This document shows, piece after piece, positions 1-17,306 of a stretch of DNA of 64,000 bases. Made by a program: the position numbers and the translations under genes. The stretch's first letter is position 1. Every line of letters starts with the position of its first letter. Origin of the DNA: Syntrophobotulus glycolicus DSM 8271 (GTDB lineage: Bacteria > Bacillota > Desulfitobacteriia > Desulfitobacteriales > Syntrophobotulaceae); contig NC_015172.1 of NCBI RefSeq assembly GCF_000190635.1, positions 1,116,001 to 1,180,000 of the forward strand, written 5' to 3'. Below the pieces are notes generated by a model. That model was not told where the DNA came from. It searched no databases and saw only the letters and a program-made list of their open reading frames with translations.

Positions 1-2
1 TG

Positions 3-527: not shown

Positions 528-531
528 GGTC

Positions 532-1728
532 ATGGCCATTTTCAGAGATTTGAGCCCCATAGACCACGACCGCTCGGTGGAGGACCGGAGAAGGCACCGC
601 CGGCTGGTGGAGAACTCGATCAAAAAAAACCTGGCCGACATTATTTCCGAAGAAAGCATCATCGGCGAGAGTAAAAATAAAAAGATCAAGATCCCGGTCA
701 GGGGGGTCAAGGAATATGAATTTATCTACGGCAAAAACAGCGGCGGAGTGGGCAGCGGCGACGGCAGCGAAAAAAGAGGGGATAAAATCGGCAGTGCCCG
801 GGAAAGGCGGCAGGGCGGGGACGGGGGAGCAGGCAATCAGGAAGGGGAGGACATTTACGAGACTGAAGTGACGATCGAGGATGTCATCAACTATTTGTTT
901 GAGGATCTGGACCTGCCCGACCTGAATAAAGCCAAGGCCTCCGAAGAAATCCGCGCAAGCGCCAGGAAAAAATCGGGCTATCAGCGCAAGGGCATCCCGC
1001 CCAGACTGGCCAAAAAGCGCTCCATGGCCGAAAAGATCAAACGCCGGCAGGGCCTGAAAAAAGCGCTGCGGGAGGAAAACCCGGCCGAGGACGACCGGGA
1101 AGGCCGGGAAAACGCCGAAGCCGAAAGGTTCCCCTTTATCGAAGAGGACCTGCGCTATCAGCGGATGAAAGAAACCGTCAGAAAGAAATCCAATGCGGTG
1201 GTGTTCTGCCTGATGGATGTTTCCGGGTCCATGGACCAGACCCGCAAATACCTGGCCCGCTCATTTTTCTTCCTGCTCTGCCAGTTTATCCAAATGAAAT
1301 ATGACGGGGTGGACGTAGTGTTTATCGCCCATACCACGACAGCGGCCGAGGTCAGTGAGAGAGAATTTTTTCACAAAGCGGAATCAGGGGGAACGAATAT
1401 TTCCAGCGCCTACGCAAAAGCCCTGGAAATCATTGAGAAAAGATATCCTGTTGAGCAATGGAATATCTATGCCTTTCATGTCAGTGACGGCGAAAACTGG
1501 GAGCAGGATAATGAGAAGGCCGTGAGGTACGCGCAGGAGCTGTGCCTGCTCTGCAATTTATTTGCCTTCGCCGAGGTCCTGCCGAGCGCGTATTACACGG
1601 ATACCATCATCAAGGTCTTCAGGGCGCGGATCAAAGCGGACCATTATCTGACGGCCTCCATTCAGGAGAAGGAAGACCTGTGGCCGGCCCTGAAAAAAAT
1701 CCTCAAAAAAGAACTGGAGGCGGGATGA
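532..1728 (+). CDS. yhbH: YhbH/DUF444 family sporulation protein
   Basis: This 398-residue protein belongs to the DUF444 (YhbH/YeaH) family, whose genes sit beside prkA in spore formers and in stress operons of other bacteria. The N-terminal half is highly charged and low in complexity (Gly-rich around residues 70-105, Lys/Arg-rich around 140-190). The C-terminal half looks like a von Willebrand A-type fold with the metal-site-like motif DVSGSM, followed by a GGTNISSAY segment. The ATG at 532 is preferred over the in-frame ATG at 511 because GAGGT lies just before it and it falls 4 bases after the prkA stop. The biochemical activity of the family is not known. Confidence 0.9.
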
Positions 1729-1731
1729 GCC

Positions 1732-3072
1732 TTGCAATATACCCTAGCGGAGATCGAAAGCTGGAATGAAAGGATCGAAGAAATCGCCCGGAGCCTGGGT
1801 CTGGATTATTACCCCCAGGAATTTGAGCTGGTCAATTACGAGGATATGCTTTCCTATGAGGCTTATATCGGCATGCCCTCCAGGTACCCGCACTGGAGCT
1901 TCGGCAAGTCCTATGAAAAGCTGAAAACCTTATACCAGTATAATTTAAGCGGCCTGCCCTACGAGATGGTCATCAACTCCGATCCCTGCATCGCCTATTT
2001 GATGAAGGACAATACCCTGCTTTTGCAGATCCTGACCATGGCCCATGTCTATGGGCATAATGATTTTTTCAAAAACAACAGGCTGTTTCAGGCCGAAACC
2101 AGGCCGGAGCTGACCCTGGAAATGTTCAAAAGCCATGCCAGGATGATCAAATCCCTGATCAATGATCCCAGCATCGGCTATGAAAAGGCGGAAAAAATAT
2201 TGGATGCCGCCCATGCCTTGAAGCTCCAGACATCCAGGGCCGTCGGAGTCAAACGCCTCAGCCCGGAAGAACAGAAAACAGCCCTGCTGGAGGAGTATCA
2301 CCGGAAAATGTCCGGGCAGAGCATCCTGGAGCCTTACCGGGAGGAAGAGCCGCCCGATCTGAGCAAAATACCCCTGCAGCCGGAGGAGGACCTCCTGCTT
2401 TTCATCAGACAGTACGGGGAGCTGGAGGAATGGGAAACCAATATTCTGGAAATCGTCCGCAGCGAAACGCGCTACTTTATTCCCCAGATCGAAACCAAAA
2501 TCATCAATGAAGGCTGGGCCAGCTACTGGCATTATGAAATCCTCAAAGCCCTGGACCTGCCCTCCGAGCTGCACCTGGAATTTATCAAGCGGCATAATGA
2601 TGTGATCGCCCCGGCCTCCGGCAGGCTCAATCCCTACTATCTGGGTTTTACGCTTTTTCAGGAGCTCTGCAAGGCCCACGGCAGGGAAAAAATCTTTGAG
2701 GTCAGAGCCTATGAACGGGATGAGTCCTTCCTCAGAAGGTACCTGACCCGGGAGCTTTGCGCCAAGCTCCATCTTTTTGAATATACCGCTGAAGGCAATG
2801 ACTACTTCGTGGAGAATGTCCCGGATGAGGAGGGCTGGCAGAGCGTCCGGGATACACTCTGCCAGTCCGCCGGCATGGGCGGGGTTCCCCTGATCCGGGT
2901 TGCCGATCTGTCCGGGAAGGACGGGACCCTGACCCTGGAGCATGTCTTTGACGGCAGGGAGCTGGAAAGGACCTATGCCGAACGGACCTTGAACTATGTG
3001 GCCGGTCTCTGGAAGAGGAAGGTCGTGCTGATCACCAGGTTCAATCAGACCGAACAGTACCTTGTGGTCTGA
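1732..3072 (+). CDS. spoVR: SpoVR family protein
   Basis: This 446-residue protein matches the SpoVR/YcgB family, which is needed for normal spore cortex formation in Bacillus; its molecular function is unresolved. Family hallmarks are the N-terminal WNERIEEIA segment, the FGKSYEK region, histidine-rich patches such as HVYGHNDFFKNN, and NEGWASYWHYEIL in the middle. It begins with TTG 3 bases after yhbH; GGAGG at about 1714-1718 inside the end of yhbH can serve as its ribosome binding site. It is the last gene of the trio and is followed by a terminator at 3154. Confidence 0.9.
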   Translation: MQYTLAEIESWNERIEEIARSLGLDYYPQEFELVNYEDMLSYEAYIGMPSRYPHWSFGKSYEKLKTLYQYNLSGLPYEMVINSDPCIAYLMKDNTLLLQILTMAHVYGHNDFFKNNRLFQAETRPELTLEMFKSHARMIKSLINDPSIGYEKAEKILDAAHALKLQTSRAVGVKRLSPEEQKTALLEEYHRKMSGQSILEPYREEEPPDLSKIPLQPEEDLLLFIRQYGELEEWETNILEIVRSETRYFIPQIETKIINEGWASYWHYEILKALDLPSELHLEFIKRHNDVIAPASGRLNPYYLGFTLFQELCKAHGREKIFEVRAYERDESFLRRYLTRELCAKLHLFEYTAEGNDYFVENVPDEEGWQSVRDTLCQSAGMGGVPLIRVADLSGKDGTLTLEHVFDGRELERTYAERTLNYVAGLWKRKVVLITRFNQTEQYLVV

Positions 3073-3153
3073 AGCACTTAAAACATCAACACTGCAAGAT
3101 CTGAAATTATTGGAATTTTGTGGGATTAAGAACGCGAAAGTAAACAAATTGAT

Positions 3154-3188
3154 ATCCGTCGCAGAGAAGAGGTGGCGGATTTTTTTTG
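3154..3188 (+). terminator. Rho-independent terminator after spoVR
   Basis: An imperfect stem ATCCGTCGC (3154-3162) pairs with GTGGCGGAT (3172-3180) and is followed by eight T residues. It sits about 80 bases after the spoVR stop and closes the prkA-yhbH-spoVR operon. Confidence 0.75.
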
Positions 3189-3222
3189 ATATTTACTGTT
3201 GTCGGCAATGAGGTGAACAAAA

Positions 3223-3262
3223 AACGTACAAAGATACCCTCGTAAAGGCATCTTTGTACGTT
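3223..3262. repeat. Perfect 13-bp inverted repeat
   Basis: AACGTACAAAGAT (3223-3235) is exactly repeated in inverse orientation at 3250-3262, with a 14-base centre. No long T-run follows, so a simple terminator is less likely than a cruciform or protein site. It lies between the spoVR terminator and the promoter of the next gene pair. Confidence 0.7.
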
Positions 3263-3290
3263 AACTCGTTAGCTGAAACTCGTTAGCTGA
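3263..3290. repeat. Tandem 14-bp direct repeat
   Basis: AACTCGTTAGCTGA occurs twice back to back (3263-3276 and 3277-3290), directly after the inverted repeat and 4 bases before the -35 box of the next promoter. It may be slippage or a tandem regulator site. Confidence 0.8.
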
Positions 3291-3294
3291 ATGA

Positions 3295-3350
3295 TTGACA
3301 TTGAATTGATTTTTGTTATATATTTATATCATAAAGAGATAAATATATAA
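3295..3350 (+). promoter_or_regulatory. Promoter with overlapping inverted repeat for the DUF3796/HTH pair
   Basis: A consensus -35 box TTGACA (3295-3300) is followed after 16-18 bases by a TATATA/TATATT -10 region (3317-3324). A perfect 12-bp inverted repeat, TTATATATTTAT (3316-3327) and its complement at 3339-3350, overlaps the -10 and start region. It would suit repression by the small HTH protein encoded second in the pair (3725); that link is inferred. Confidence 0.6.
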
Positions 3351-3365
3351 CATGGAGGCTTCGTT

Positions 3366-3722
3366 ATGAAAAATAAGCTGGCCTATTTAGGGTTTCTTGG
3401 ATTTATCGGCTTTGGAGGACTGATTGGCGGAAAGGCTAATTTGTTTTCGTTTCTGCCCTTTCTTATATTTTTTTCATACATAAACGTAATTCCTGATGAA
3501 TTATTTTGGGAAAATGTAAAAAATTCTGCATTTTACGCCTTTGTGGTACAAACTATTATTTCAGTAATTGCTTTAACGATTAGCACAATCATAACAGATA
3601 CAAACCTGATTGTTGGTGTTTTGATTGGAGGGCTGTCTTTAAATTATGGAATAGGTATTTTTATCTTCGCATTGAGCTTATCGTACTATGAACATAGAGA
3701 GAAAAAGGGGAAAGCAGAATAG
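3366..3722 (+). CDS. Small integral membrane protein, DUF3796-like
   Basis: The 118-residue protein has four hydrophobic segments (about 7-25, 28-45, 55-80 and 86-108) and a charged tail ([10 protein letters not shown]). Its start and opening sequence ([15 protein letters not shown]) resemble DUF3796 membrane proteins of Firmicutes, which usually sit beside a YozG-like HTH regulator, as here. A ribosome binding site (GGAGG) lies just before the ATG. The function is unknown. The downstream HTH gene starts 2 bases after the stop, so the two are surely co-transcribed. Confidence 0.75.
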
Positions 3723-3724
3723 GC

Positions 3725-3928
3725 ATGATCATAAAAACAAGAATCAAAGAGTACCGTGCAAAGCACAATATGAAACAAGAGGATTTAGCAAGGCTTGTAG
3801 GTGTTAGAAGGGAAACGATATATCATCTTGAAAACGGAAAATACAACCCCTCTCTCGCTCTGGCCTATTTGATTGCAAAAGTATTTAAAGTATCAATAGA
3901 GGAAATTTTTGAGATCACTGAGGAATAG
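3725..3928 (+). CDS. Small HTH_3 (XRE/YozG-like) transcriptional regulator
   Basis: This 67-residue protein consists almost entirely of an HTH_3 domain ([19 protein letters not shown], recognition helix near [17 protein letters not shown]) with the short C-terminal tail [10 protein letters not shown] typical of YozG-like regulators. It is cytoplasmic and DNA-binding. It is translated directly after the membrane protein gene and probably controls the shared promoter at 3295, where an inverted repeat overlaps the -10 box. The signal it responds to is not apparent. Confidence 0.9.
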
Positions 3929-4094
3929 AACTGTTTTCTGCCAATTCGGTTAATAAAAAACTTAGTTGAGGCAGTTAGCTTCAGAAAAAACGAACCAAAT
4001 ACTGTATAATATGGAATAGCTGTCCGGATGTAAGAGATGAAAGACCAGCGAGGAAAAGTCAAGATAAATCTTGAGGAAAAAGGGGAGAAATGAA

Positions 4095-4490
4095 ATGATT
4101 TTCCGGAAAATAAAAGTTTTGTTTGTGGCGGGGGCAATACTGCTCGGCCATTTATTCATCTATGCCGGTGTCTCTTATGGGGATACGGCACAGTCAGCAC
4201 AGCCGCCAATCAATTCAGCGATTCAGGAGAATGAAGAGTTAAAATCCAGACTGGCTGTTTTGCAGGGCGACTTCAGTTCCCTGGAAAATGAAATGAAAAA
4301 TAATGATGGTCAGTTTCGGGCAAGCAATGGATGTCTGATGTTTCTTTTTGGAGCCTTTTGTGCCTTATGGGCACAGAATCATAGAAGGAATGCCCTGGTA
4401 TGGTTCATCGCGGGAGCGGCCTTCACCGTCATTGCAGCTTTAGCTGTTCTCTTGCTCAATCACAGAGAGATTACCCAGAGACCCCGCTGA
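4095..4490 (+). CDS. Small exported or membrane protein of unknown function
   Basis: The protein (131 residues from ATG 4095) has an N-terminal hydrophobic segment (about 8-30, signal peptide or anchor), a short Glu/Leu-rich stretch likely to form a coiled coil (about 44-74), and C-terminal hydrophobic segments (about 78-95 and 102-124). ATG 4095 is chosen over the in-frame TTG at 4071 because GGGGAG lies at 4080-4085. A TATAAT box is seen at 4005-4010. The gene converges with the MFS gene and overlaps its 3' end by 51 bases. I do not recognise the family. Confidence 0.6.
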   Translation: MIFRKIKVLFVAGAILLGHLFIYAGVSYGDTAQSAQPPINSAIQENEELKSRLAVLQGDFSSLENEMKNNDGQFRASNGCLMFLFGAFCALWAQNHRRNALVWFIAGAAFTVIAALAVLLLNHREITQRPR

Positions 4491-5735
4491 GTCAGCGGCG
4501 CAGGGGTCGAAGGTTTTTTCCTTAATCAAGAGTCCAGGGACAAGCCCGCAGATCGTATAAGCAATACCGAGCAGGCCAATGCCGTACCCGATGGAAAATT
4601 CGGTGGCCATATAGCCGATAAACAGGGGGGAAAGGACAGAGCCGATTTTTCCGACCGAGGCCAGGGAAGCCATTGCCGTTCCCCGAATCCTCACGGGAAA
4701 GGTTTCGCTCATGTAGGCCGGAAGCAAAGCCAGAGGCGTCGCATAGAGAAAACCGAATCCGACCATCAGAAAAATGGCGTTGGTTAAGGAAATAGAAGTG
4801 ACGAGGAGAGGCATGGAGACGGCTGTGCTTAAGCCCACGATCAGCCACATCACCCTTCGGCCGAGCTTGTCGGCCAGAAACCCCGCCAGCAGCTTGCCGA
4901 AGACCATGGCGGTATAGGTCCCCGCTACATACAGGCTCATCTCTTTAAAGTTCAGCCCCAACTCGGTATTCAAATAGCTGGGAAGCCAGGTGTTGGCCCC
5001 GTAATAGCCGAATTGGAGGGCGGTATAGGTGATCCCCCAAAGCAAAAATACCTTTCGCACCGCTTTGTCCTTCCAGATGACGACATATTCGTTTTGTTTG
5101 GTCCGGCTGTCTTTTTGGGCGGCGGCGGCGAGAAAGCCGGCCGGTTCCTGGGTTTTCCGCAGAATGAAGAAGGAAATCAAAGCCGGAAAAACGGACAGGA
5201 CAAATAACGGCCGCCAGCCGTAGACAGGCAGGACGGCGGCGGAAATGAGGGCCGCCAGAATATAGCCCACCGACCAGCCCGCGATCAGGAAGCCCATCAC
5301 AGTGCCCCGCTTTTTTGTCGGGACATACTCGGCGACCAGCAGGGTGCCGATGGAATAGAGGGCGGAGATCCCGAAGCCGGAAAAGAATCTGACCAGGGCA
5401 AACTGCCAGTAGGTCTGGACAAAGCCCAGTAGAAATGTGAATACGGTAAAGGTAAGCAGGGAGGCAATGGTCGTTTTGACCCGGCCGATCCGGTCGGAAA
5501 GCAAACCGGCGATTAAACCGCCGATTCCCATCCCGATCAAGGTGTAGCTGGTCAGAGCCCCCGCCTTGATCGGGCTGACGGCAAAATCGGCTCTGATGGC
5601 GGGGAGACATAGGCTCAGCAATTGCAGGTCCATGCCGTCTACGACTAAAGCGATAAAAATGGCGATGAACAGCAGATGCCAGGTTTGCTTGCTTGCGGCC
5701 GGGGGTCTGTTTTGGTTTGAATTTTTCTTTTTCAT
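4440..5735 (-). CDS. MFS transporter, aromatic acid:H+ symporter-like
   Basis: The 431-residue protein has about twelve transmembrane segments and the major facilitator signature between TM2 and TM3 (GLLSDRIGRVKTT), repeated in the second half (GFLADKLGRRVMW). The opening DGMDLQLLSLCLP resembles the acidic TM1 motif of the AAHS group, which takes up benzoate-like and other carboxylates with protons. It sits in the inner membrane and probably imports the acid used by the neighbouring CoA genes. A GGAGGG site precedes the start. The promoter carries the island's 17-bp palindrome (5774-5790). Substrate is not determined. Confidence 0.85.
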   Translation of the reverse strand: MKKKNSNQNRPPAASKQTWHLLFIAIFIALVVDGMDLQLLSLCLPAIRADFAVSPIKAGALTSYTLIGMGIGGLIAGLLSDRIGRVKTTIASLLTFTVFTFLLGFVQTYWQFALVRFFSGFGISALYSIGTLLVAEYVPTKKRGTVMGFLIAGWSVGYILAALISAAVLPVYGWRPLFVLSVFPALISFFILRKTQEPAGFLAAAAQKDSRTKQNEYVVIWKDKAVRKVFLLWGITYTALQFGYYGANTWLPSYLNTELGLNFKEMSLYVAGTYTAMVFGKLLAGFLADKLGRRVMWLIVGLSTAVSMPLLVTSISLTNAIFLMVGFGFLYATPLALLPAYMSETFPVRIRGTAMASLASVGKIGSVLSPLFIGYMATEFSIGYGIGLLGIAYTICGLVPGLLIKEKTFDPCAADSAGSLGNLSVIEQENS

Positions 5736-5770
5736 GGAAAACCCTCCTTCGACCTGATGGCAAAATATTA

Positions 5771-5800
5771 AATATAGAATATCATTCTATGAATACTCAA
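5771..5800 (-). promoter_or_regulatory. Promoter of the MFS gene with 17-bp operator between -35 and -10
   Basis: Read on the minus strand, TTGAGT (5795-5800) and TATATT (5771-5776) are 18 bases apart. The perfect palindrome ATAGAAT-ATC-ATTCTAT (5774-5790) fills the spacer, a position where a bound repressor would block RNA polymerase. The same palindrome occurs at three other promoter regions of the island. Confidence 0.75.
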
Positions 5801-5908
5801 AATCGTGATTTGCAAAACAATCCCCGAAAAAGGGAGCGGGCTTTGGAAACGCCGGGCGTTTAATCAGGGATAACATGCGGTTTCCTGATAAATTCTATCT
5901 GCGGACAA

Positions 5909-5957
5909 TTGACAAGATCAAAACCAGGATGTAATGTAATATATAAATATATTCTAT
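5909..5957 (+). promoter_or_regulatory. Promoter of the MaoC pair with operator-like site at the start region
   Basis: TTGACA (5909-5914) and TAATGT (5932-5937) are 17 bases apart. Directly after lies ATATAAA-TAT-ATTCTAT (5941-5957), which matches the island palindrome ATAGAAT-N3-ATTCTAT in all but two positions and would cover the transcription start. Confidence 0.65.
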
Positions 5958-6005
5958 GAACATGATTATAGGTATTCCAAAACCTCGGAGAAAGGGAGCG
6001 AAAGC

Positions 6006-6467
6006 ATGGCCAAAAAAAATGTGGAAATCGGGAAAGCGACGGTTGCGGTTTCGTATGAAGTGGAACGGGGGAAAATCAAGGAGTTTGCCACAGCCCTGGG
6101 GGACAGCAACCCGGTTTACTTCAGCCGTGAAGAAGCGCGGAAGCAAGGCTATCGGGACATCATCGCGGCGCCGACCTTCGGCCTGCCTGTCAAACGCTGG
6201 GGAAGCGGTGTTTCGGACTACGGAGAGTATTGCAAAATGCTGGACATTGACCCCCAAATGGTTGTGCACGGCGAGCAGGAGTTTTTGTATTTCGGGGAAA
6301 TCAATCCCGGCGATGTCTTGACCGGTCAGGAATACCTGACAGACCTCATTGAAAAGGACACCATGTACCTGCTTGTCTGCGAAACGAAATTTTACAATCA
6401 GGACGGGGCGCATGTCCTGACCAGCCGGTTTACGCAAATCGAACGCAAAAGAAAGGGAGTGTCATAA
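6006..6467 (+). CDS. MaoC-like hydratase/dehydratase, non-catalytic-type subunit
   Basis: The 153-residue protein is a hot-dog-fold MaoC family member of the N-terminal (FAS1-DH/HadA-like) type. In the hydratase-2 motif region it reads GDSNPVYFS: the aspartate is kept but the usual catalytic histidine is replaced by tyrosine, as in the substrate-binding partner subunits of two-subunit hydratases. It overlaps the next gene by one base (ATAATGG), which carries the complete motif, so the two products probably form a heterodimer that hydrates enoyl-CoA or dehydrates (3R)-hydroxyacyl-CoA. The promoter at 5909 links it to the island regulon. An AGAAAGGGAG site precedes the start. Confidence 0.85.
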   Translation: MAKKNVEIGKATVAVSYEVERGKIKEFATALGDSNPVYFSREEARKQGYRDIIAAPTFGLPVKRWGSGVSDYGEYCKMLDIDPQMVVHGEQEFLYFGEINPGDVLTGQEYLTDLIEKDTMYLLVCETKFYNQDGAHVLTSRFTQIERKRKGVS

Positions 6468-6892
6468 TGGCGAACAGCAGTTTTCTTCAATCCGTCCAAG
6501 AGGGGGACACCTGGCCGGAGCTGGTGAAGCCGCCGGTAACCGCGGAGCAATGCGCCCGCTATTGCGGGGCTTCAGGAGATTTCAACCATCTTCATTATTC
6601 CGAGAAAGCGGCCAAGGCCGCCGGGTTCAGCGATGTGATCGTCCAGGGCGCTCTGGTGATGGGGATAATGGGCCAGGCGATCACCGATGTCGTGCCCAAC
6701 AGGCTCCTGCGCCAGTTCAAGGTGCGCTTCGCCAAGGTTACCCGCCTCGGGGATCAAATCACCGTGCGCGGCCGGGTGACGAAAATAGAGCTGGTGGACG
6801 GGGAGCGGGTTTTGTTCGCGACCCTGGAGGCCACGGACCAGAACGGCGAAAAGAAAGCTTCGGGTGAATTTCAGCTCAGCCTGGCCGGTTAA
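6467..6892 (+). CDS. MaoC family (R)-specific enoyl-CoA hydratase, catalytic subunit
   Basis: This 141-residue hot-dog protein has a full hydratase-2 motif (YCGASGDFNHLHYS, with catalytic-type Asp and His) and the downstream VQGALVMGIMG segment. Known members add water to trans-2-enoyl-CoA or remove it from (3R)-3-hydroxyacyl-CoA. It is translationally coupled to the preceding, histidine-lacking MaoC protein. In this island it would take the place of the crotonase-type CaiD of the carnitine pathway; that is inference from context. The gene converges with the CoA-transferase gene downstream. Confidence 0.9.
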   Translation: MANSSFLQSVQEGDTWPELVKPPVTAEQCARYCGASGDFNHLHYSEKAAKAAGFSDVIVQGALVMGIMGQAITDVVPNRLLRQFKVRFAKVTRLGDQITVRGRVTKIELVDGERVLFATLEATDQNGEKKASGEFQLSLAG

Positions 6893-6914
6893 GGCCGGTA
6901 CCGGGGACCGCGCG

Positions 6915-6976
6915 GGGGCGGGAAAGACCGCCCCTTGCGAGCGGCCTCCCTGTCCGGCCCGTTTTTTTTGCGTGGC
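6915..6976. terminator. Possible terminator between convergent MaoC and CoA-transferase genes
   Basis: A GC-rich hairpin (GGGGCGG with CCGCCCC, about 6915-6934) and a T8 run at about 6963-6970 lie between two converging operons. The stem and T-run are not adjacent, so the exact structure is uncertain. Confidence 0.35.
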
Positions 6977-7028
6977 CGCGGCATTTCCGGGTATTCGGCA
7001 CAATCTCCCGCGCAGAGCGCCTTCTCCT

Positions 7029-8249
7029 TTACTGGCTTTTGACCGCTCCCGCCTGGAGCATTTCCGCGATAGCCTGTTCGGAATAGCCCAGCTCCCGCAG
7101 AATTTCCACGGTATGCTCACCGAGCTTGGGGGCGGGATTGTAAGCCGTCTGGCCAAGGTTCCTGGACTGCAGGGGCGGGCGGATCAGACCGACGGTTTTG
7201 CCGCTGGGAAATTCCCTTTTTTCCAGCCAGCCATTGGCCCAAATCTGCTCGTCTGTGGCAATATCCTTAATATGGGCCAGGCGGGTGAAGGGGATGTCCC
7301 GCTCTTTGAGGACACCTGCCCAATGGGCGAAATCCTCTAAGATGAATTTTTCTTCAAAAGCGCGAATGATGGTCTCGCAGTTCCGCATGACCAGCACATC
7401 GCTGCCGAAGCGCTCGTCCCCGGTGAATTCCTCCAGGCCGAGGACCGCAAACAGATTTCCGATATGCTTCATGATCGGCGAGGCCGAGAGGGCAATCCAT
7501 TCCCCGTCCCTGCACTGATAGGGCAGGATGGTGGGATTGGCGTCGGTGTACCTTTTCTTGGGAAGCTGATAGCCGTATTGGGTGGCGACAATCGCCTGCC
7601 CCTGCACCCAGCAGGCCGTACTGTAGAGCGAATTCATCACCCGGTCCCCTTTGCCGGTGCGCAGCTTGTTGATCAGGGCGGCGCAGATCCCGCCGAAGAG
7701 CGCGGTGCCGGTGATGGTGTCGCCCACCGCTCCCGGCGGATAAATGGGATACGAGCCGGGCACGTCAATACGCCAGCTGTTTAAGAAGCCGGAAGCGCTC
7801 CAGAAAGAGGTCTGGTCAAAGCCGGGATCATCGGCCCGGGGCCCGGTATCCCCATAGCCTGTGATGCAGGCGTAAATCAGGCCGGGAAAACGCTCCTTCA
7901 GACTGTCGTAGTCCAGGCCCATCTTCTTCATGGACCTTTCCCGCATATTGCTGATCAGGACATCGGTGTCCGCCAGCAGCCTGAAGAAAATCTCTCTTCC
8001 GGTTTCTGTCTTGATGTCGAGGGCAATATCCCGTTTGTTGGCGTTGAAAATTTCGAAAAGGGGCATTTCATCAGGCTGGACCGGGACATTGACCTGCTTG
8101 CCGAAAGAACGCATAAATTCGCCGTCCACGGTCTCGACCTTGATCACGCTGGCCCCCCAGTCGGCCAGGATACGGGCGCAGCCGGGACCGGCCACCACCT
8201 GCGAGAAGTCGATTACCTTGATCCCGTTTAAAGGCTTGTTGTTTTCCAT
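7029..8249 (-). CDS. CaiB/BaiF family (type III) CoA-transferase
   Basis: The 406-residue protein matches type III CoA-transferases: the N-terminal GIKVIDFSQVVAGPGCARILADWGA nucleotide/CoA segment, a DPGFDQTSFWSASG block containing the aspartate expected to form the acyl-enzyme intermediate, and a C-terminal LGEHTVEILRELGYS end. Such enzymes move CoA between an acyl-CoA donor and a free acid (for example carnitine/crotonobetaine, formate/oxalate). It is the second gene of a minus-strand operon, 17 bases after the acyl-CoA ligase, with a doubled AGGAGGAGG ribosome site. Together they offer both ATP-driven activation and ATP-free CoA recycling of one substrate, as CaiC and CaiB do. Substrate unknown. 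Confidence 0.9.
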   Translation of the reverse strand: MENNKPLNGIKVIDFSQVVAGPGCARILADWGASVIKVETVDGEFMRSFGKQVNVPVQPDEMPLFEIFNANKRDIALDIKTETGREIFFRLLADTDVLISNMRERSMKKMGLDYDSLKERFPGLIYACITGYGDTGPRADDPGFDQTSFWSASGFLNSWRIDVPGSYPIYPPGAVGDTITGTALFGGICAALINKLRTGKGDRVMNSLYSTACWVQGQAIVATQYGYQLPKKRYTDANPTILPYQCRDGEWIALSASPIMKHIGNLFAVLGLEEFTGDERFGSDVLVMRNCETIIRAFEEKFILEDFAHWAGVLKERDIPFTRLAHIKDIATDEQIWANGWLEKREFPSGKTVGLIRPPLQSRNLGQTAYNPAPKLGEHTVEILRELGYSEQAIAEMLQAGAVKSQ

Positions 8250-8266
8250 CGTTTGAAACCTCCTCC

Positions 8267-9790
8267 TTAGGATTGGTTTGATGAGCCGTTCAGATACTTC
8301 TTCAATTCATGCTTCACGACTTTCCCGCTCGGATAATACGGAAGCTTTTCCATGAAAACGATTTTCTTGGGAACCTTATACGCGGCAATGTTGGCGCGGC
8401 AGTAGCGGAGGATCTCCTCTGCGGTAATGTCGGAGCCTTTTGCCCGCACCACAAAGGCGACCGGGACCTCGTTCCATACCGGGTCGCACATGCCGAGCAC
8501 AGCCACCTGGGAAATCCGGCCCGTCAGGCCGCCGATGCAGCTCTCCACCTCCTTGGGGCAAATATTTTCTCCGCCGGAGATGATGAGATCGTATTTCCGG
8601 TCCACCACATAGAGAAAACCGAAGTGATCGAGATAGCCAATGTCTCCGGTATAATACCAGCCGTCGCGCAGGGCGCTCCGCGTGGCGCTTTCGTTGTTGC
8701 TGTAGCCTTTCATGACGGCCGGGGTCCTGACGATGATTTCGCCGAGCTTGCCCGGAGCGCAGCGGGTGCCGTCGCTTCGGATGATCCTGACCTCCATGCC
8801 GGCATTGGGCAGTCCGACGGAGTAGCGTCTCTGCCCTTGAGGGTCCTGGGGGCTGGGAAAGTGCCATTTCCAGGGAAGGATCGTCAGGGAACAGATCTCC
8901 GAGGTGCCGTAGATTTGCTCAAATTCACAGGAAAAGCACTTCAGGGCTTCATCGATGACGGCAGGCGGCATCGGCGCCCCGCCGTAGACGATTTTCCGGA
9001 CCGCGGACAGGTCGTAATCGTTTAAGGCCCCGCTCTCCAGGACGCGGCTGATCAGCACGGGCTGGAGACTGAGGCGGGTGGCCCGGTACAGGGAGGCCGT
9101 GCGTAAAAAATCATGCAGATCAAAGTGGTCTTTTAAGATCAGGGTGCCGCCGGTGAGCAGGCAGATCACGGCGGAAAATCCGGAAATGTGGAAAAGGGGA
9201 GAGGCGGTCTGGTAGATTTCCGAAGCAGTCCAGGCGGCATTGTAGGCCAGGGACAGGGTATAATAAAGCAGCCCGCCGTGCGTGTGCAGAACCCCTTTGG
9301 GCAGTCCGGTGGTGCCTGTGGTAAAAAGCTCCAGGGCGATATCCCCGGGAGCGGCCTCCGCCAGGGGGAAATCCGCCGCCTGTTCCGCCATCAGGCTGCG
9401 CAGGGACGGTCCGTCCTGGGCGTCGTCCAGGGAAACAGATAAACTGCCGGGCGCGGCCGGCGGATTGGCGTTGGCATCGAAGAGAATGAGATGCATATCC
9501 TCACCCCGCACCACCCGGCCCAGCTCCTTCTGGGAAAGCCGGCAGTTCAAGACGCAGGGGATGGCCCCAAGCTTGAGACAGCCCAGCAGGGCCTGCAAAT
9601 ACAAATCGGAATTGCGGGCGGTGATGGCGACCCGTTTTTGCCGGGTGACACCGAGCGCCCGCAGGGCTGAGGCACAGCGGTTGATCCCGGCGTTTAACCG
9701 GGCATAGGTGTAGTGCTCTTCCCCGAAGATCAAAGCGGTCTTGTCCGGCCGCTCCAGGACCTGACGTTCAAACATCGACATCAAATTCAT
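8267..9790 (-). CDS. AMP-forming acyl-CoA synthetase (acid-CoA ligase)
   Basis: This 507-residue protein belongs to the ANL adenylate-forming superfamily. It has the P-loop-like motif TTGTTGLPKGV, the YGTSE A5 motif, GWYYTGDIG, and the C-terminal catalytic lysine region YPSGKVVKHELKKYL. It would activate a free carboxylic acid with ATP and CoA. The ATG at 9790 is preferred over the in-frame ATG at 9835 because GGGGAA lies just before it and because the operator at 9834-9850 would otherwise overlap the coding start. It leads the minus-strand operon with the CoA-transferase and corresponds by position to CaiC of the carnitine pathway. Substrate is not evident. Confidence 0.9.
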   Translation of the reverse strand: MNLMSMFERQVLERPDKTALIFGEEHYTYARLNAGINRCASALRALGVTRQKRVAITARNSDLYLQALLGCLKLGAIPCVLNCRLSQKELGRVVRGEDMHLILFDANANPPAAPGSLSVSLDDAQDGPSLRSLMAEQAADFPLAEAAPGDIALELFTTGTTGLPKGVLHTHGGLLYYTLSLAYNAAWTASEIYQTASPLFHISGFSAVICLLTGGTLILKDHFDLHDFLRTASLYRATRLSLQPVLISRVLESGALNDYDLSAVRKIVYGGAPMPPAVIDEALKCFSCEFEQIYGTSEICSLTILPWKWHFPSPQDPQGQRRYSVGLPNAGMEVRIIRSDGTRCAPGKLGEIIVRTPAVMKGYSNNESATRSALRDGWYYTGDIGYLDHFGFLYVVDRKYDLIISGGENICPKEVESCIGGLTGRISQVAVLGMCDPVWNEVPVAFVVRAKGSDITAEEILRYCRANIAAYKVPKKIVFMEKLPYYPSGKVVKHELKKYLNGSSNQS

Positions 9791-9833
9791 AGCAAATTCC
9801 CCATCTCTGTTTGGAAAAAATATAAGATTATTC

Positions 9834-9850
9834 ATAGAATTGTATTCTAT
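9834..9850. promoter_or_regulatory. 17-bp operator upstream of the acyl-CoA ligase operon
   Basis: A perfect palindrome ATAGAAT-TGT-ATTCTAT lies 43 bases upstream of the ligase start. It has the same arms as the site at the MFS promoter and differs only in the 3-base centre. The exact -10/-35 of this minus-strand promoter could not be assigned with confidence. Confidence 0.8.
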
Positions 9851-10011
9851 CAGTTCTAACCTTATTTTTGGCGATTATGTGTGAATTGTCAAGGGACTTT
9901 TGTTCATTTTCCGACAAATTTATGTCACCGCGGCCGCCGGCCGGGGAAAATTCCCGCCGGAGCGGGAGTTCGCGGCCGGGGAAAAAGTCGCAAAATGTTG
10001 AGAAGGAGAGC

Positions 10012-10039
10012 TTGACACGGGAGGAAATATCATTATGAT
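10012..10039 (+). promoter_or_regulatory. Promoter of the TetR regulator gene
   Basis: TTGACA (10012-10017) and TATGAT (10034-10039) are 16 bases apart, 73 bases before the regulator start. Only a very degenerate version of the island palindrome overlaps the -10 box, so autoregulation through that motif is doubtful. Confidence 0.65.
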
Positions 10040-10111
10040 TGAAGTGTCATCTCATCTGTTTTAAAGAGTAAAATACCGGGAACGGCCGGAGAATTTGGAG
10101 ATTATTAGGAC

Positions 10112-10714
10112 ATGGCGACGAGAAAGGAACAGGCCTACGCCACCAAAACGCGCATTGTGAGGGCCACCCTGCAATTGCTGACGCGTATCCGGTATCAGGA
10201 TCTGAAGGTAGCCGATATTTGCCGGGCTTCGGGTGTTTCCGTAGGGACGTTTTATCATTATTTCCCCACCAAGGACGCGGTATTGCTGGAAGGGGGGCTG
10301 CCGTTTGACCGGTGGCTGGAAAAACAGCTGAACTCCAAGAAAATTTTCAAAAATGTCAGTGATAAGCTGGAGTACTTTTCGGAAATGTACTTTTTCAATA
10401 TGTTCAGCGTCGGCCTGAACGGTGTGGCGGCGACCTTCGTCTACCAGCTCAATGACGAGCGGGGAGATTTTCACAGTCAAAACCGCTATTTGTACACCAA
10501 ATTATCCGAGATTTTGGAAGAGGGCTTTTCTTCCGGGGAATTCCAGAGCGATTATACGCCCAAGGAAATCAAACAGGCCATCATCAGCATGTACCGCGGC
10601 GTGACCTTCGACTGGTGCATAGAAAACGGCAGCTTCGACATCATCAGTGTCGGCAAACTGACAACCAAAATGCTGCTGGACGGTATGCTGAAAAACCGCG
10701 CGTCTTCCCTTTGA
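10112..10714 (+). CDS. TetR family regulator, likely controller of the acyl-CoA island
   Basis: The 200-residue protein has an N-terminal TetR helix-turn-helix (about 10-55; recognition region DICRASGVSVGTFYHYFPTKDAVL) and an alpha-helical ligand-binding C-terminal domain without recognisable sub-family. It is transcribed alone, between the minus-strand ligase/transferase operon and the plus-strand permease/dehydrogenase/fix operon. Since it is the only regulator in the island and all four island promoter regions share a 17-bp palindrome, I infer that it binds that palindrome and is released by an acid or acyl-CoA. The motif itself does not prove which protein binds it. Confidence 0.9.
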   Translation: MATRKEQAYATKTRIVRATLQLLTRIRYQDLKVADICRASGVSVGTFYHYFPTKDAVLLEGGLPFDRWLEKQLNSKKIFKNVSDKLEYFSEMYFFNMFSVGLNGVAATFVYQLNDERGDFHSQNRYLYTKLSEILEEGFSSGEFQSDYTPKEIKQAIISMYRGVTFDWCIENGSFDIISVGKLTTKMLLDGMLKNRASSL

Positions 10715-10780
10715 CGGCTGACGCTTCTGTTCGCTTTCGAAAAACGGGAAGCGGATATGGTTCAGTATTCCGGGGTATCG

Positions 10781-10866
10781 TCGTTGCTATACAACGATCA
10801 CGGCAGGTTCAATTTGAACCCTACTCCTTGAGTGGGAAAAACAGCGGCAATCAGCCGCTGTTTTTT
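10781..10866 (+). other. Structured spacer with successive hairpins (possible small RNA or 3' UTR)
   Basis: After the TetR stop the sequence shows TCGTTG-CTATA-CAACGA (10781-10797), GGTTC-AATTT-GAACC (10806-10820), a CTC/GAG-based stem ending near 10836, and then the terminator hairpin. No coding frame with a ribosome site covers it. A separate promoter was not clear, so it may simply be the regulator's structured 3' untranslated end. Confidence 0.4.
10837..10866 (+). terminator. Rho-independent terminator after the TetR gene
   Basis: AAACAGCGGC and GCCGCTGTTT form a strong stem with the loop AATCA, followed by T6. It separates the TetR unit from the promoter of the permease operon at 10891. 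Confidence 0.9.
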
Positions 10867-10890
10867 CTTTGTCTTTATCTGATAAATCTA

Positions 10891-10946
10891 TTGACATCAG
10901 CAGACAATAAGGGTAATCTAAAATCAATCATCGAATATGATTCTAT
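10891..10946 (+). promoter_or_regulatory. Promoter and operator of the permease/dehydrogenase/fix operon
   Basis: TTGACA (10891-10896) and TAATCT (10914-10919) are 17 bases apart. The site ATCGAAT-ATG-ATTCTAT (10930-10946) matches the island palindrome with one mismatch and lies just past the predicted transcription start, the same geometry as at the MaoC promoter. Confidence 0.75.
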
Positions 10947-11078
10947 GAATTATATTTTATTATTTGTCTGAAACAAAGTGCGGCAAAAAAGGGAGGTGAA
11001 TCGTCGGTACGGCTTGCACTTTGCGGTTTCCTGTCAGCATCAAAACCTTGTAAAGCGAGAAAGGAGAGGGATAAAGAG

Positions 11079-12491
11079 ATGAGTATGAACAAGAAAAAAG
11101 GAATGATCCTGATCATCGCCATTGCGATTGCGGCAATCTTTTTCATGATTTCTCCGTTTAAAGGTCTGGAAGCTCCGGCGATGCGCTACATGGGAATCTT
11201 TATTGGAATGATTATTATTCTTATTGCCAACGCTCTGCCCGACGCGGTGACCATTATTCTGGCCCTGACCGCGCTTACGGTCTTCCGGGTCGATACCCAG
11301 GCCGCGATTTGGAGTTCTTTCGGCGGAACGGTGGTCTGGCTGATGATTCCCGCTTTCGCGATCGGGACGGCGGTAGCCAAAACAGGACTGCTTTCCCGGA
11401 TGGCCCTTTGGATTTTAAAGGCGTTTCCTTCCAAATACGGCGGACAGATTCTGGCCCAGATGATCTCGGGCATCATCATGTCCCCCCTGATTCCCAGCCA
11501 GAACGCCAAGGCCACCATTGTCACGCCTTATGCATTGTCGATGTGCCGGGAATTGGGGTACAAGAAAAGCTCCAAACCGGCGGTGGGCATTTTCCTGGCC
11601 ATGTATACCACGGCGGTCACCCTGGGTGTCTGCTTCCTCAGCGGCTCGATCAATTCTTTTGTCATCCAGGGCTTTTTAACGGATGCCCAGAAGGCGCAGT
11701 TCGGCTGGGGCAACTGGTTCCTGGGCGCGCTGCCGAGCCTTGTCGTGATCCTCGTTTTGTTGTACCTCTATCTGTCCAGGGCCTATCAGCCCGGTAAGGA
11801 CGAAATCAGCTTCAGTGATTCTCAGGAGTATGCCAGAAAACGTTTGGCGGAGATCGGCCCTTTAAGTAAAGACGAAAAAGTTGCCATCGTTGTCCTGGCC
11901 TTCACCCTGATCGGTTGGATGACCACGAAAATACACGGCCTGGACGCCTCCATGGTGGCGATGCTGGCCATGATCGCCTTTTTTGTACTCGGCCAGTTTA
12001 CGATGACCGATTTCCAGAGCAAAATTCCCTGGAGCGCGGTGGTCTTTGTCGGCGGCATCAACGCGGTGGCCGGCATCCTGAGCGCCGTGGGCCTGAATAA
12101 GTGGATTGCCCTCAACCTCCAGCCGCTGACCAACCTGTTTACGACGAATGTGATTCTGGTGATCATCGCGGTCTGTGTGCTGGCCTTCCTGATGCGCATG
12201 GCGATCCTTTCCTTTGTGGTCGTCACAGCGGTGGTGGCTACGATCTTTACGCCGATTTGCGTGGCGATGGGCATCAGCCCCTGGATTCCGCTCTATGCCC
12301 AGATCATCATTGCCATGAACTGGAGTCTGAGCTTCACCAACTCCCAGATGATCACGGCCCTGGCCGCGGGCGGCGGCTCCGACCTGTTGGAATACCGCGA
12401 TACCCAGAAGGCCTCTTATGTCTATTCGGCGATCGCCTTCGCCGGGATTCTGGTCAGCATTCCGTTCTGGAAGATGATGGGATTATGGTAA
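11079..12491 (+). CDS. SLC13/DASS-type anion permease
   Basis: The 470-residue protein has about eleven to twelve transmembrane segments. Asn/Ser-rich re-entrant motifs occur in both halves (SPLIPSQNAKATIV and SFTNSQMITAL), as in the divalent anion:sodium symporter family that carries di- and tricarboxylates or related acids. It is the first gene of a likely operon with the acyl-CoA dehydrogenase and fix genes, and is expressed from a promoter with the island operator. The island therefore holds two carriers, this one and the MFS protein at 4440; one may import the substrate and the other export a reduced product. An AAGGAGAGGG site precedes the start. Confidence 0.85.
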   Translation: MSMNKKKGMILIIAIAIAAIFFMISPFKGLEAPAMRYMGIFIGMIIILIANALPDAVTIILALTALTVFRVDTQAAIWSSFGGTVVWLMIPAFAIGTAVAKTGLLSRMALWILKAFPSKYGGQILAQMISGIIMSPLIPSQNAKATIVTPYALSMCRELGYKKSSKPAVGIFLAMYTTAVTLGVCFLSGSINSFVIQGFLTDAQKAQFGWGNWFLGALPSLVVILVLLYLYLSRAYQPGKDEISFSDSQEYARKRLAEIGPLSKDEKVAIVVLAFTLIGWMTTKIHGLDASMVAMLAMIAFFVLGQFTMTDFQSKIPWSAVVFVGGINAVAGILSAVGLNKWIALNLQPLTNLFTTNVILVIIAVCVLAFLMRMAILSFVVVTAVVATIFTPICVAMGISPWIPLYAQIIIAMNWSLSFTNSQMITALAAGGGSDLLEYRDTQKASYVYSAIAFAGILVSIPFWKMMGLW

Positions 12492-12562
12492 GGTGAACAA
12501 TCCAGAAAATGATGGGGTTAGGGTCAGGTGACCAATCAATATAGAAAAAGGAATGGTGTTCT

Positions 12563-13717
12563 ATGCTTGAACTAAAACGATATCTGCTCAATGAAGACCA
12601 GCAGGGAATCAAAGATCTGATCAATGATTTTGCCGTTAAAGAAATTATGCCCGCCGCCGAAAAGGCGGATATTACCGGGGAATTTCCCCTGGAAACCGTC
12701 AAAAAAGCAGCCAATCTCGGCTTTACTCTCCTCACCCTTCCCGAGGAATACGGCGGACTGGCCTGCAATTATTCCACCATTGCCGTAGCCAAGGAAGAGC
12801 TGGGACACGCCGACGTGGGCTTTGCCGCAACCTTAAGCGGGGCCATGCTGGGCACAATGCCCGTCAAGCTGGCCGGCGGCGAATATCACTGGAAAAAGGT
12901 GGCCGATGTCCTCACCGGCGGCGGCCTTACGGCCTTCGCCCTGACTGAACCGTCCGCGGGTTCCGATGCCGGAGCCTGCCGGACGACAGCGGTGAGATCA
13001 GGCGACGACTATATCCTGAACGGGCGCAAATGCTTTTGCACCAATGCCGCTTACGCCGATATTTTCACGGTGATCGCCTCAACCGACCGCAGCCAGGGGG
13101 CCAAGGGCCTGACCGCGTTTCTGGTCGATGCGGGCACACCGGGACTAACCATCGGCAAGGAAGAAAACAAAATGGGGGCGCGTTCCAGCAACACCTGTGA
13201 TGTGGTGTTTGAGGATGTCAAAGTGCCGGCTAAAAATCGAATCGGCGAAGAAGGCAAGGGCTTTATCATCGCCATGAAAGCGCTCGGGATCGGACGGGCC
13301 TCAGCGGGGGCCACAGCAATCGGCAACGCCCGCTTCGCCCTGGAATACGCTCTGGATTACGCCACCAAACGCGTAACCTTCGGGAAACCGATCGCAGAGC
13401 AGCAAGGAATTCAGCACTTGCTGGCAGACATGTATATGCGCCTGGAAGCGGCCAGATCGCTCACCGCTTACGCCTGCCAGCTTGTGGACAACGGGATCGT
13501 GGACGCCGCCGTCAATTCCAGCGCCAAGGCCTTTGGCAGTGATACCGGAATGTCCGTCACGACGGACGCGGTGCAAATTCTCGGCGGTTATGGCTACAGC
13601 AAAGAGTACCCGCTGGAAAAACGGATGCGGGACGCCAAGATCATGCAAATTTGGGAAGGGACCAATCAGATTCAGCGCAACCTGATTGCCGGAAATCTGA
13701 TTGCGCGGGCCAAATAG
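12563..13717 (+). CDS. Acyl-CoA dehydrogenase (CaiA-like flavoprotein)
   Basis: This 384-residue protein is a complete FAD-dependent acyl-CoA dehydrogenase, with the FALTEPSAGSDAGA signature, the FGKPIAEQQGIQ FAD/tetramer region, the ILGGYGYSKEYPLEKRMRD signature, and the catalytic glutamate in IWEGTNQIQ. Next to FixABCX it would trade electrons with electron-transfer flavoprotein: either oxidising an acyl-CoA or, as CaiA does with crotonobetainyl-CoA, reducing an enoyl-CoA as an electron sink. An AAAGGAATGG site precedes the start. Seventy bases separate it from the permease, and this gap contains a short imperfect duplication but no terminator, so one operon is likely. Confidence 0.95.
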   Translation: MLELKRYLLNEDQQGIKDLINDFAVKEIMPAAEKADITGEFPLETVKKAANLGFTLLTLPEEYGGLACNYSTIAVAKEELGHADVGFAATLSGAMLGTMPVKLAGGEYHWKKVADVLTGGGLTAFALTEPSAGSDAGACRTTAVRSGDDYILNGRKCFCTNAAYADIFTVIASTDRSQGAKGLTAFLVDAGTPGLTIGKEENKMGARSSNTCDVVFEDVKVPAKNRIGEEGKGFIIAMKALGIGRASAGATAIGNARFALEYALDYATKRVTFGKPIAEQQGIQHLLADMYMRLEAARSLTAYACQLVDNGIVDAAVNSSAKAFGSDTGMSVTTDAVQILGGYGYSKEYPLEKRMRDAKIMQIWEGTNQIQRNLIAGNLIARAK

Positions 13718-13748
13718 CCCGGTTCCAGCTCAAGGACGATAGGAGTGA

Positions 13749-15038
13749 ATGACATTGGCAGAAGAAAAATTTCAGGTCATTATTATCGGAGCCGGAATGG
13801 CAGGAGCAGCGGCAGCTTACCGCCTGGCCAAAGCGGGGCGGGAGGTTCTGGTCGTCGACCGGGGAAGTGAACCGGGAGCCAAAAATATGACCGGCGGGCG
13901 GCTCTATACGTACGCTTTGGAGGAGTTAATGCCCGGAGAGTGGCTGAGCGCTCCTTTGGAACGGGAAGTGACACGGGAGATCCTGATGCTGATGACGCCC
14001 CAGGACAGTGTGGCGGTGGATACGATGCTGGGCGGCGCGAGCCGCCAGTCCTACTCCGTTTTAAGAGCCCGTTTCGACCCCTGGCTGGCGGCCAAAGCGG
14101 AAGAGGCCGGGGCGATGCTGATTCCCGGCAGCACGGTGGACGGGCTGATCCTGCGGGACGGAAAGGTCGCCGGCATTAAAACCGGGGGGGAAGAACTGGA
14201 GGCGGATCTGGTGATCAGCGCCGAAGGGGTCAATGCCCTGGTCGCCGAACGGGCCGGGCTGATCCGGCCGGTGCGCGCTCAGGATGTAGCCGTGGCTGCC
14301 AAGCATGTGATCAAACTTTCAGAGGAAATCATCAACGAACGTTTTAATACAGCCCCGGGCCAGGGCGCGGCAATCATGTGCGCCGGAGAATGTACCCGGG
14401 GGATCAGCGGCGGGGCCTTCCTTTACACCAATAAAGACAGCATCTCCCTGGGGCTGGTGGTCGATTCCAAGGGCTGGAAAGAGGCCAAAATGCCCCTGGC
14501 GGAAGTCGCGGAAAATCTGAAGCAGCACCCCGCGCTGGCCAGATATATCGAAGGGGGCGAGCTGGTGGAATACTCGGCTCACCTGGTGCCGGAGGGCGGT
14601 TATCCGTCCCTGCCCCAGCTCTATGGGGACGGGTTCCTCCTGGCCGGGGACGCCGCGGGCCTGGTGGTGAACAGAGGGTTTACGGTGCGCGGGATGGATT
14701 ATGCCATTTTGTCCGGGATCGCGGCGGCCGAAACCGCCAATGAAGCGATCGAAGCGGGAGATTACAGCCGCCGCACCCTGCAAAGCTATGAAGCAAGGCT
14801 GCAAAAACTCGTGCTCAAGGATTTGGAAACCTTAAAGAACAGTCATGATTACCTCGCCCATACCCGGCATTTATTTACCACCTATCCGGCCCTGGCCGCC
14901 GGGCTGATGAAGAATCTTTATCAAGTGGACGGCCAGCCGGCGAAAAAGGTCACCGGCCTGCTCAAGGAAAGCATCCGGGGCAAACTGCCTTATTTTGATG
15001 TCTTCAAAGATATCCTCAAAGGGGGTCGATCGTTGTGA
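13749..15038 (+). CDS. fixC: FixC-like electron transfer flavoprotein:quinone oxidoreductase
   Basis: The 429-residue protein starts with a Rossmann FAD motif (VIIIGAGMAGAAAAYRLAKAG) and has the family's GAKNMTGGRLY, GDAAGLVVN and a C-terminal segment, but no fused ferredoxin domain; that part is supplied by the separate FixX protein that overlaps it by 4 bases. FixC passes electrons between ETF (FixAB) and the quinone pool or a bifurcation acceptor. The start is uncertain: AGGAG at 13741-13745 is too close to ATG 13749, so TTG 13755 (better spacing) may be the true start. Confidence 0.92.
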   Translation: MTLAEEKFQVIIIGAGMAGAAAAYRLAKAGREVLVVDRGSEPGAKNMTGGRLYTYALEELMPGEWLSAPLEREVTREILMLMTPQDSVAVDTMLGGASRQSYSVLRARFDPWLAAKAEEAGAMLIPGSTVDGLILRDGKVAGIKTGGEELEADLVISAEGVNALVAERAGLIRPVRAQDVAVAAKHVIKLSEEIINERFNTAPGQGAAIMCAGECTRGISGGAFLYTNKDSISLGLVVDSKGWKEAKMPLAEVAENLKQHPALARYIEGGELVEYSAHLVPEGGYPSLPQLYGDGFLLAGDAAGLVVNRGFTVRGMDYAILSGIAAAETANEAIEAGDYSRRTLQSYEARLQKLVLKDLETLKNSHDYLAHTRHLFTTYPALAAGLMKNLYQVDGQPAKKVTGLLKESIRGKLPYFDVFKDILKGGRSL

Positions 15039-15337
15039 AAAGCCTAGCGATAGATGACCGTCTGGCCAGGAACCGTTTCGACAGCGACGATCACAATGCC
15101 CATATTCTTGTGGACAGAGAAGCCTGCCGGACCTGCGCCCACCGGGCCTGCACCTACAGCTGTCCGGCTGAGCGGTATAAGTGGGACACGGTCAGCGATA
15201 AGATGAGCTTTGACCATGTCGGCTGTTTGGAATGCGGAAACTGCCGGCTGGTCTGTGAGCGGCTGAACGGGAGCATACCCGGCTATTCCTGGAATTATCC
15301 GGTTCAGGGAATGGGCATTATTTTTCGGGAAGGCTGA
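15035..15337 (+). CDS. fixX: FixX ferredoxin-like protein
   Basis: This 100-residue protein has two cysteine groups: C-x2-C-x4-C-x3-CP near residues 30-45 and CLECGNCRLVC near residues 67-77, consistent with a [4Fe-4S] ferredoxin of the FixX type. It partners FixC and completes the ETF:quinone oxidoreductase-like complex. The start overlaps the fixC stop (GTGA), showing translational coupling. The GTG start codon is preceded by GGGGGTCG. Confidence 0.92.
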   Translation: MKSLAIDDRLARNRFDSDDHNAHILVDREACRTCAHRACTYSCPAERYKWDTVSDKMSFDHVGCLECGNCRLVCERLNGSIPGYSWNYPVQGMGIIFREG

Positions 15338-15370
15338 GCAAGATCACGTGAAAACTGGAGGGATGAAAAT

Positions 15371-16159
15371 ATGGAAATCCTTGTTTGTGTAAAACAGGTG
15401 CCGGATACGGCCGAGCTGAAGGCCGATCCAAGCGGCACCAGTCTGAATAAAGACGGTGTGCCAAACATTGTGAACCCTTTCGATAAAAACGCGCTGGAAG
15501 CGGCTGTCCAGCTGAAGGAAGCGCACGGCGGACGGGTCACGGTCCTCAGTCTGGGACCGGACCAGGCCAAAGCGGCCTTGAAGGAGTGTGTTTCGGTCGG
15601 GGCTGATGAAGCGGTGCTGGTCAATGATCCGGCCTTTGCGGGATCGGATGCCTATGCGACCGCTCATATCCTGGCCGCGGCGGCCGGAGCACTGGGCGCC
15701 TTTGACCTGGTGATTTGCGGGAAACAGACCCTGGACGGCAGCGGGGGCCAAGTCGGTCCTGAATTGGCCGAACAGCTGGGGATTCCCCACGTCACATCCG
15801 TATCCAAAATCGAGGCGGCCGGGGAGACGCTCCGTGTTCACCGGGAAACCGATGAAGGGGACGAAGTTCTTGAAACCGGATTTCCCGCGCTGGTCACGGT
15901 TGGAAAATCCATCAATGAGCCTCGTTTTCCGTCCATTAAGAGTAAAATGGCGGCCAATAAAGCGGTTATCCGGGTTTTGACCGGGGCCGATCTGCCCGGG
16001 CTGGATCAGACCAAGGTCGGGGCGGCAGGCTCTCCGGTCAAGATCCTCAAAGAATACCTGCCGGCCAAGAGACAGGCCGGTCTGAAAATTAAAGAGGCGA
16101 CCAATCAAGACTCGGCACTGAAGCTGGTTGACCATTTAGTGCAGGCAAAGCTTATTTAG
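15371..16159 (+). CDS. fixA: Electron transfer flavoprotein beta subunit (FixA/EtfB)
   Basis: The 262-residue protein matches ETF beta: N-terminal ILVCVKQVPDTAE, the DKNALEAAVQLKE helix, and the ICGKQTLDGSGGQVGPELAEQLG AMP/FAD-binding segment. With FixB it carries electrons from or to the acyl-CoA dehydrogenase encoded 1.6 kb upstream. A GGAGG site precedes the start; 12 bases separate it from fixB. Whether this ETF is of the bifurcating (FixAB) kind cannot be settled by eye, although its pairing with fixCX supports it. Confidence 0.95.
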   Translation: MEILVCVKQVPDTAELKADPSGTSLNKDGVPNIVNPFDKNALEAAVQLKEAHGGRVTVLSLGPDQAKAALKECVSVGADEAVLVNDPAFAGSDAYATAHILAAAAGALGAFDLVICGKQTLDGSGGQVGPELAEQLGIPHVTSVSKIEAAGETLRVHRETDEGDEVLETGFPALVTVGKSINEPRFPSIKSKMAANKAVIRVLTGADLPGLDQTKVGAAGSPVKILKEYLPAKRQAGLKIKEATNQDSALKLVDHLVQAKLI

Positions 16160-16171
16160 GAGGGCCAGAGA

Positions 16172-17176: not shown

Positions 17177-17306
17177 AGCGGGCCGCTGAGCTGAAAAGCT
17201 GGTTTTACACCGGCCGGCGCCCGAAGCGTGATGCGGAAAGAGTTTTTGGAACCCCTGTTCTGAAAACTCTTTTCTAATGGGCTGCGGCCCCGGAAAAGGA
17301 GAATGA

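Follow-up and report, generated by a model that had tools for sequence, protein, structure and literature searches.

A shared operator-like element at four predicted promoters of an acyl-CoA gene island in Syntrophobotulus glycolicus

The genome of Syntrophobotulus glycolicus is a single contig of 3,406,739 bp. The stretch analysed here (the window, 64,000 nucleotides, contig positions 1116001-1180000; coordinates below refer to the window unless marked otherwise) contains an island of acyl-CoA genes with the following members:

4440-5735, minus strand: MFS transporter, aromatic-acid/H+ symporter-like (family matches)
6006-6892, plus strand: pair of MaoC/HadA-HadB-like hydratase subunits (family matches)
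7029-8249, minus strand: CoA-transferase of family III, CaiB-like (domain scan)
8267-9790, minus strand: acyl-CoA ligase (domain scan on 8267-9799)
10112-10714, plus strand: TetR-family regulator of 200 aa, candidate repressor (domain matches, nearest solved relatives)
11079-12491, plus strand: DASS-type sodium/anion symporter (family matches)
12563-13717, plus strand: acyl-CoA dehydrogenase/reductase (best NCBIfam model acryloyl-CoA reductase AcrC, 381 bits against a cut-off of 640)
13749-17176, plus strand: fixC, fixX and two ETF subunits, fixA and fixB (family matches)

The ATG at 9790 is preferred as the ligase start over the one at 9835, because a ribosome-binding-like GGGGA precedes it and 9835 would fall at the edge of an operator. 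Two uptake systems, a ligase, a CoA-transferase, a hydratase pair, an acryloyl-CoA-reductase-like dehydrogenase and FixCXAB together suggest a pathway in which an acid is activated and then reduced or oxidised as its CoA thioester, on a logic like that of the E. coli cai/fix system. No tRNA is found in window positions 1-20000. Outside the island, 41613-42224 encodes an RloB-like protein, of a family often seen with restriction or defence genes.

The inverted repeat ATAGAAT-N3-ATTCTAT occurs in the island just as the first-pass annotation of this DNA had described it: perfect at 5774-5790 and 9834-9850, with one mismatch at 10930-10946 and with two at 5941-5957. At the slightly greater length adopted here, the predicted operators are:

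5774-5793, plus strand: predicted operator 1, ATAGAATATCATTCTATGAA; perfect 17-mer, MFS promoter
5941-5960, plus strand: predicted operator 2, ATATAAATATATTCTATGAA; two mismatches, promoter region of the MaoC pair
9831-9850, minus strand: predicted operator 3, ATAGAATACAATTCTATGAA as read on the minus strand; perfect, ligase/CoA-transferase operon
10930-10949, plus strand: predicted operator 4, ATCGAATATGATTCTATGAA; one mismatch, permease/dehydrogenase/fix operon

The 17-bp palindrome originally proposed survives as the core of a longer element, which carries a one-sided GAA extension at every site. With the sites oriented so that the stronger half is on the right, ATTCTATGAA is perfect on one side of all four, and this 10-mer has exactly four occurrences in the window, one per site. 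The probability of a one-sided GAA extension at 4/4 sites by chance is about 4e-6 (a post-hoc estimate from base composition). The predicted operator is thus better written ATAGAAT-N3-ATTC-TAT-GAA, that is, as a core palindrome with an extra outer arm on one side. The segment ATTC-TAT-GAA(T) is itself dyad-symmetric, so that every site has two dyads with axes 7 bp apart, and at sites 10930 and 5941 the symmetry about the second equals or exceeds that about the first. Two interleaved TetR dimers per site are possible on this geometry. No earlier description of the operator sequence was found in the literature.

Site 1 is located in the promoter-like sequence TTGAGT-N18-TATATT of the MFS gene (5800-5771, minus strand; promoter scan). 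It had been assigned to the -35/-10 spacer, most of which it does cover, but it also takes in the first three bases of the -10 element. The promoter scan also returns TTGACA-N17-AAAAAT for the ligase operon (9892-9864, minus strand), with site 3 beginning 13 nt past the -10. The other two promoters come from reading the sequence: TTGACA at 5909-5914, N17 and TAATGT at 5932-5937 for the MaoC pair, with site 2 beginning 3 nt past the -10; and TTGACA at 10891-10896, N17 and TAATCT at 10914-10919 for the permease operon, with site 4 beginning 10 nt past the -10. (Their -10 elements match at only 3/6 positions, and they are for this reason missing from the promoter scan.) A lone half-site-like AATTCTAT is also present at 5893-5899, between operators 1 and 2; the likely -35 of the MaoC pair follows ~10 bp further on.

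All four sites overlap or follow a predicted σ70-type -10, and the earlier suggestion that their position fits repression holds for these predicted promoters. The same arrangement bears on whether TetR might instead be an activator or dual regulator of the four promoters. Some members of the family do activate (FasR and AtrA; PMC7382501, PMC3511530), but protein bound over or just beyond the -10 usually blocks polymerase, and a positive role is improbable. Still less probable is a role other than protein binding, with the repeats acting as RNA hairpins or terminators or being left over from duplicated promoter DNA. Near-identical 23-mers in two relatives of the same order form the stems of long hairpins; the stems at the four island sites, however, are short and AT-rich, no Rfam family is found in the window, and site 1, being inside a promoter spacer, would not be transcribed with its gene. 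Moreover, the flanks and N3 centres differ among the sites, which are therefore not copies of one segment.

The motif had been said to mark all four promoter regions of the island. Four predicted promoters do carry it, but a fifth, that of tetR, does not:

10012-10039, plus strand: likely tetR promoter, TTGACA-N16-TATGAT, 11/12 consensus bases; without operator
10834-10868, plus strand: likely tetR terminator, before the permease promoter; 15-pair stem with a T run

The tetR promoter region (10013-10050) has a different inverted repeat, TGACAC...GTGTCA, together with ATCATTATGAT over the -10; these are possibly the site of another regulator.

Specificity was analysed by pattern searches of the whole genome and by matrix scans of the window and of simulated sequence. 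With up to 3 mismatches allowed, the window has 10 matches, whereas shuffling gives an expectation of 3.0 (0/100 shuffles reach 10), and the motif is the sole perfect 7+7 palindrome (with any spacer of 0-8) that recurs there; simulated windows give a mean of 0.03 recurrences. The genome-wide search proposed in the first-pass annotation finds the only two perfect copies and the only one-mismatch copy of the genome all within one 5.2-kb stretch. Matches with two mismatches occur at 7 places besides, and these look like background. The 23-mer TTCATAGAATN3ATTCTATGAA, at up to 3 mismatches, has exactly three matches in the genome, all of them in the island. The pattern ATANAAN4ATTCTATGAA is perfect genome-wide only at sites 5774, 5941 and 9834; allowing one mismatch adds site 10930 and one place elsewhere, the latter within a coding frame.

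With a matrix derived from the three better sites alone, the held-out fourth (5941) scores 19.6, compared with a best score of 18.2 in 3 Mb of simulated sequence; in simulated intergenic sequence, which is AT-richer, 5 places in 2 Mb reach 19.6. The best score in the window outside the four sites is 12.5. Site 5941 is weak by mismatch count, yet it is supported by this held-out score above the simulated background. Among the rejected candidates, a weak one precedes the dehydrogenase gene (12548-12564; matrix score 9.8, which is background); another, a perfect GAATN3ATTCN3GAAT ahead of a nitrogenase-like gene (genome position 977171), reaches no more than 12.9 and is put down to chance.

That the four sites are themselves chance AT-rich palindromes is scarcely conceivable. 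Two-mismatch copies are indeed found at other places, but confinement of the strong copies to the island, the held-out score and the one-sided extension all speak against chance, which the genome-wide search refutes for three of the sites; 5941 stays the weakest. The motif is specific, common to every member promoter and rare elsewhere. The proposal of one regulon spanning four operons is thus upheld by genome-wide confinement, by the held-out site and by position at predicted promoters.

The protein encoded at 10112-10714 matches TetR_N (1.4e-10) and, weakly, TetR_C_4 (YsiA-like; 3.9e-5). Its N-terminal helix-turn-helix scores 41 bits with PF00440, above the cut-off of 24, and its best NCBIfam model is FadR, at 47 bits, which is below the cut-off of 200 for the curated family. 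(A single-sequence structure model has a pLDDT of 43.) The nearest solved chains by sequence are 5gp9/5gpa, 3ang, 4uds (MbdR), 1vi0 and 3whb. The structure table itself calls only 3whb a regulator of fatty acid metabolism; 5gp9, 3ang, 1vi0 and 3whb are presumably all FadR proteins that bind acyl-CoA, and most of the nearest chains are taken to be acyl-CoA-responsive repressors. For this reason an acyl-CoA would be the likeliest signal for the island TetR.

The claim that this is the only regulator holds between 4440 and 17176, while the window as a whole has more, among them a second TetR-family gene (30980-31612, minus strand). The latter adjoins an HxlR-type regulator gene (31982-32506) and is not linked to the motif. 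As the sole regulator among the island genes, and with a perfect site at the divergent neighbouring ligase operon, the island TetR is the likely binder of the motif, an assignment that is plausible but circumstantial. TetR-family regulators bind palindromic operators as dimers and control genes next to their own, often divergent ones. Many TetR proteins regulate themselves, and a tetR promoter without the motif argues against simple autoregulation as well as against TetR as the binder. A further point against it is the 321-bp gap between ligase and tetR, which exceeds the rule-of-thumb distance of 200 bp for TetR targets (exceptions are listed; PMC3511530).

In the alternative view, the motif serves a regulator whose gene lies elsewhere in the genome (for instance the second TetR, 30980-31612, or one not seen), and the island TetR acts at other places. 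The motif-free tetR promoter, the further regulators of the window and weak TetR matches elsewhere in the genome are all compatible with this. On the other hand, a regulator with strong sites only in the island should be dedicated to it, and the island has one regulator gene; the alternative is accordingly unlikely.

Comparison with relatives identifies no genome that carries both TetR and motif. The best TetR match has about 30% identity, whether sought in 100 relatives, across the GTDB collection or among 398 genomes of the phylum, and this is too distant for footprinting. In the order, represented by 73 genomes, there is no enrichment of the motif: outside this genome there are scattered 3-mismatch matches, 16 against 14 for a reversed control. 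The two best matches in the order (G059 and G072) form the stems of long hairpins that have no connection with acyl-CoA genes, and were set aside. In two metagenome-assembled genomes of the order, near-identical TTCATAGAAAT-N3-TTCTATGAA-like stems lie inside long hairpins, perhaps terminators (L102:2826-2848 and L103:4102-4124).

Parts of the island do occur in relatives (CoA-transferase; FixC/FixX at 76/75%; MFS at 60%; or MaoC pair with dehydrogenase and ligase), without a matching TetR and without a site above matrix background. Relatives thus hold pieces of the island but neither motif nor matching TetR, a distribution that points to assembly or acquisition of the regulon within this lineage. 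The MaoC/HadA-like pair in particular is absent or only distantly matched in the 100 relatives, its best matches (about 50%) being in remote members of the phylum, and may therefore have been acquired.

The favoured reading, at a probability of about 0.75, takes the four sites as the operators at which the island TetR binds and represses the four operons, as a single local regulon induced by substrate. One TetR dimer, or two interleaved ones, would occupy ATAGAAT-N3-ATTC-TAT-GAA. Bound over the -10 or the region of the transcription start, or just downstream, TetR would repress four units: the MFS gene, the MaoC pair, the ligase/CoA-transferase operon and the permease/acyl-CoA dehydrogenase/fixCXAB operon. 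A CoA thioester made by the ligase or CoA-transferase would probably release TetR from DNA, and genes for uptake, activation, hydration and electron transfer would then switch on together. (The sites, their restriction to the island, their placement at predicted promoters and the genes present are observed; TetR binding, its repressive effect and acyl-CoA as ligand are inferred.) A FadR-like local regulon with an operator of its own is regarded as real and well supported, and as ordinary in kind. Much more doubtful is an extended version, in which GAAT-N3-ATTC-N3-GAA(T) is a three-part array, its two overlapping dyads 7 bp apart, read cooperatively by two dimers of an undescribed TetR branch that governs a cai/fix-like acid-reducing pathway.

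The analysis puts forward a specific operator and regulator, both open to testing, for an acyl-CoA/Fix cluster of a syntrophic bacterium. The only substrates reported for S. glycolicus are glyoxylate and, in co-culture, glycolate (PMC3156405); this published range does not explain why acyl-CoA/Fix genes are kept. Knowing which ligand releases the repressor would give a lead to the substrate of the pathway; were the two-dimer array and cai/fix-like pathway real, the inducer would disclose a substrate or electron acceptor not yet known.

Among known systems, FadR (YsiA) of Bacillus subtilis is a TetR-family repressor of fatty-acid degradation whose targets include ligase, acyl-CoA dehydrogenase and ETF genes and which long-chain acyl-CoA releases from DNA. 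The island resembles it in its regulator (TetR family, with the YsiA-like TetR_C_4 domain) and in the ligase, acyl-CoA dehydrogenase and ETF genes, and differs in that the island TetR falls well short of the NCBIfam FadR cut-off and that the regulon is one local cluster. The B. subtilis FadR box, TGAATGANTANTCATTCA, has 0 matches in the window at up to 3 mismatches. FadR of Thermus thermophilus (TTHA0101, presumably the protein of 3ang) is comparable as a TetR-family repressor of acyl-CoA genes that is among the nearest structures and has an odd-length pseudo-palindromic operator. The E. coli cai/fix genes, a carnitine gene set used anaerobically, correspond by family matches in CoA-transferase III, CoA ligase, acyl-CoA dehydrogenase-type reductase and FixABCX. 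The published T. thermophilus operator, 15 bp, TTRNACYNRGTNYAA (PMC5597230), differs from the island element in sequence and spacing, a point against the island TetR as binder of the motif. With respect to cai/fix, the island has the MaoC pair in place of CaiD, the MFS and DASS transporters in place of CaiT, and TetR in place of CaiF.
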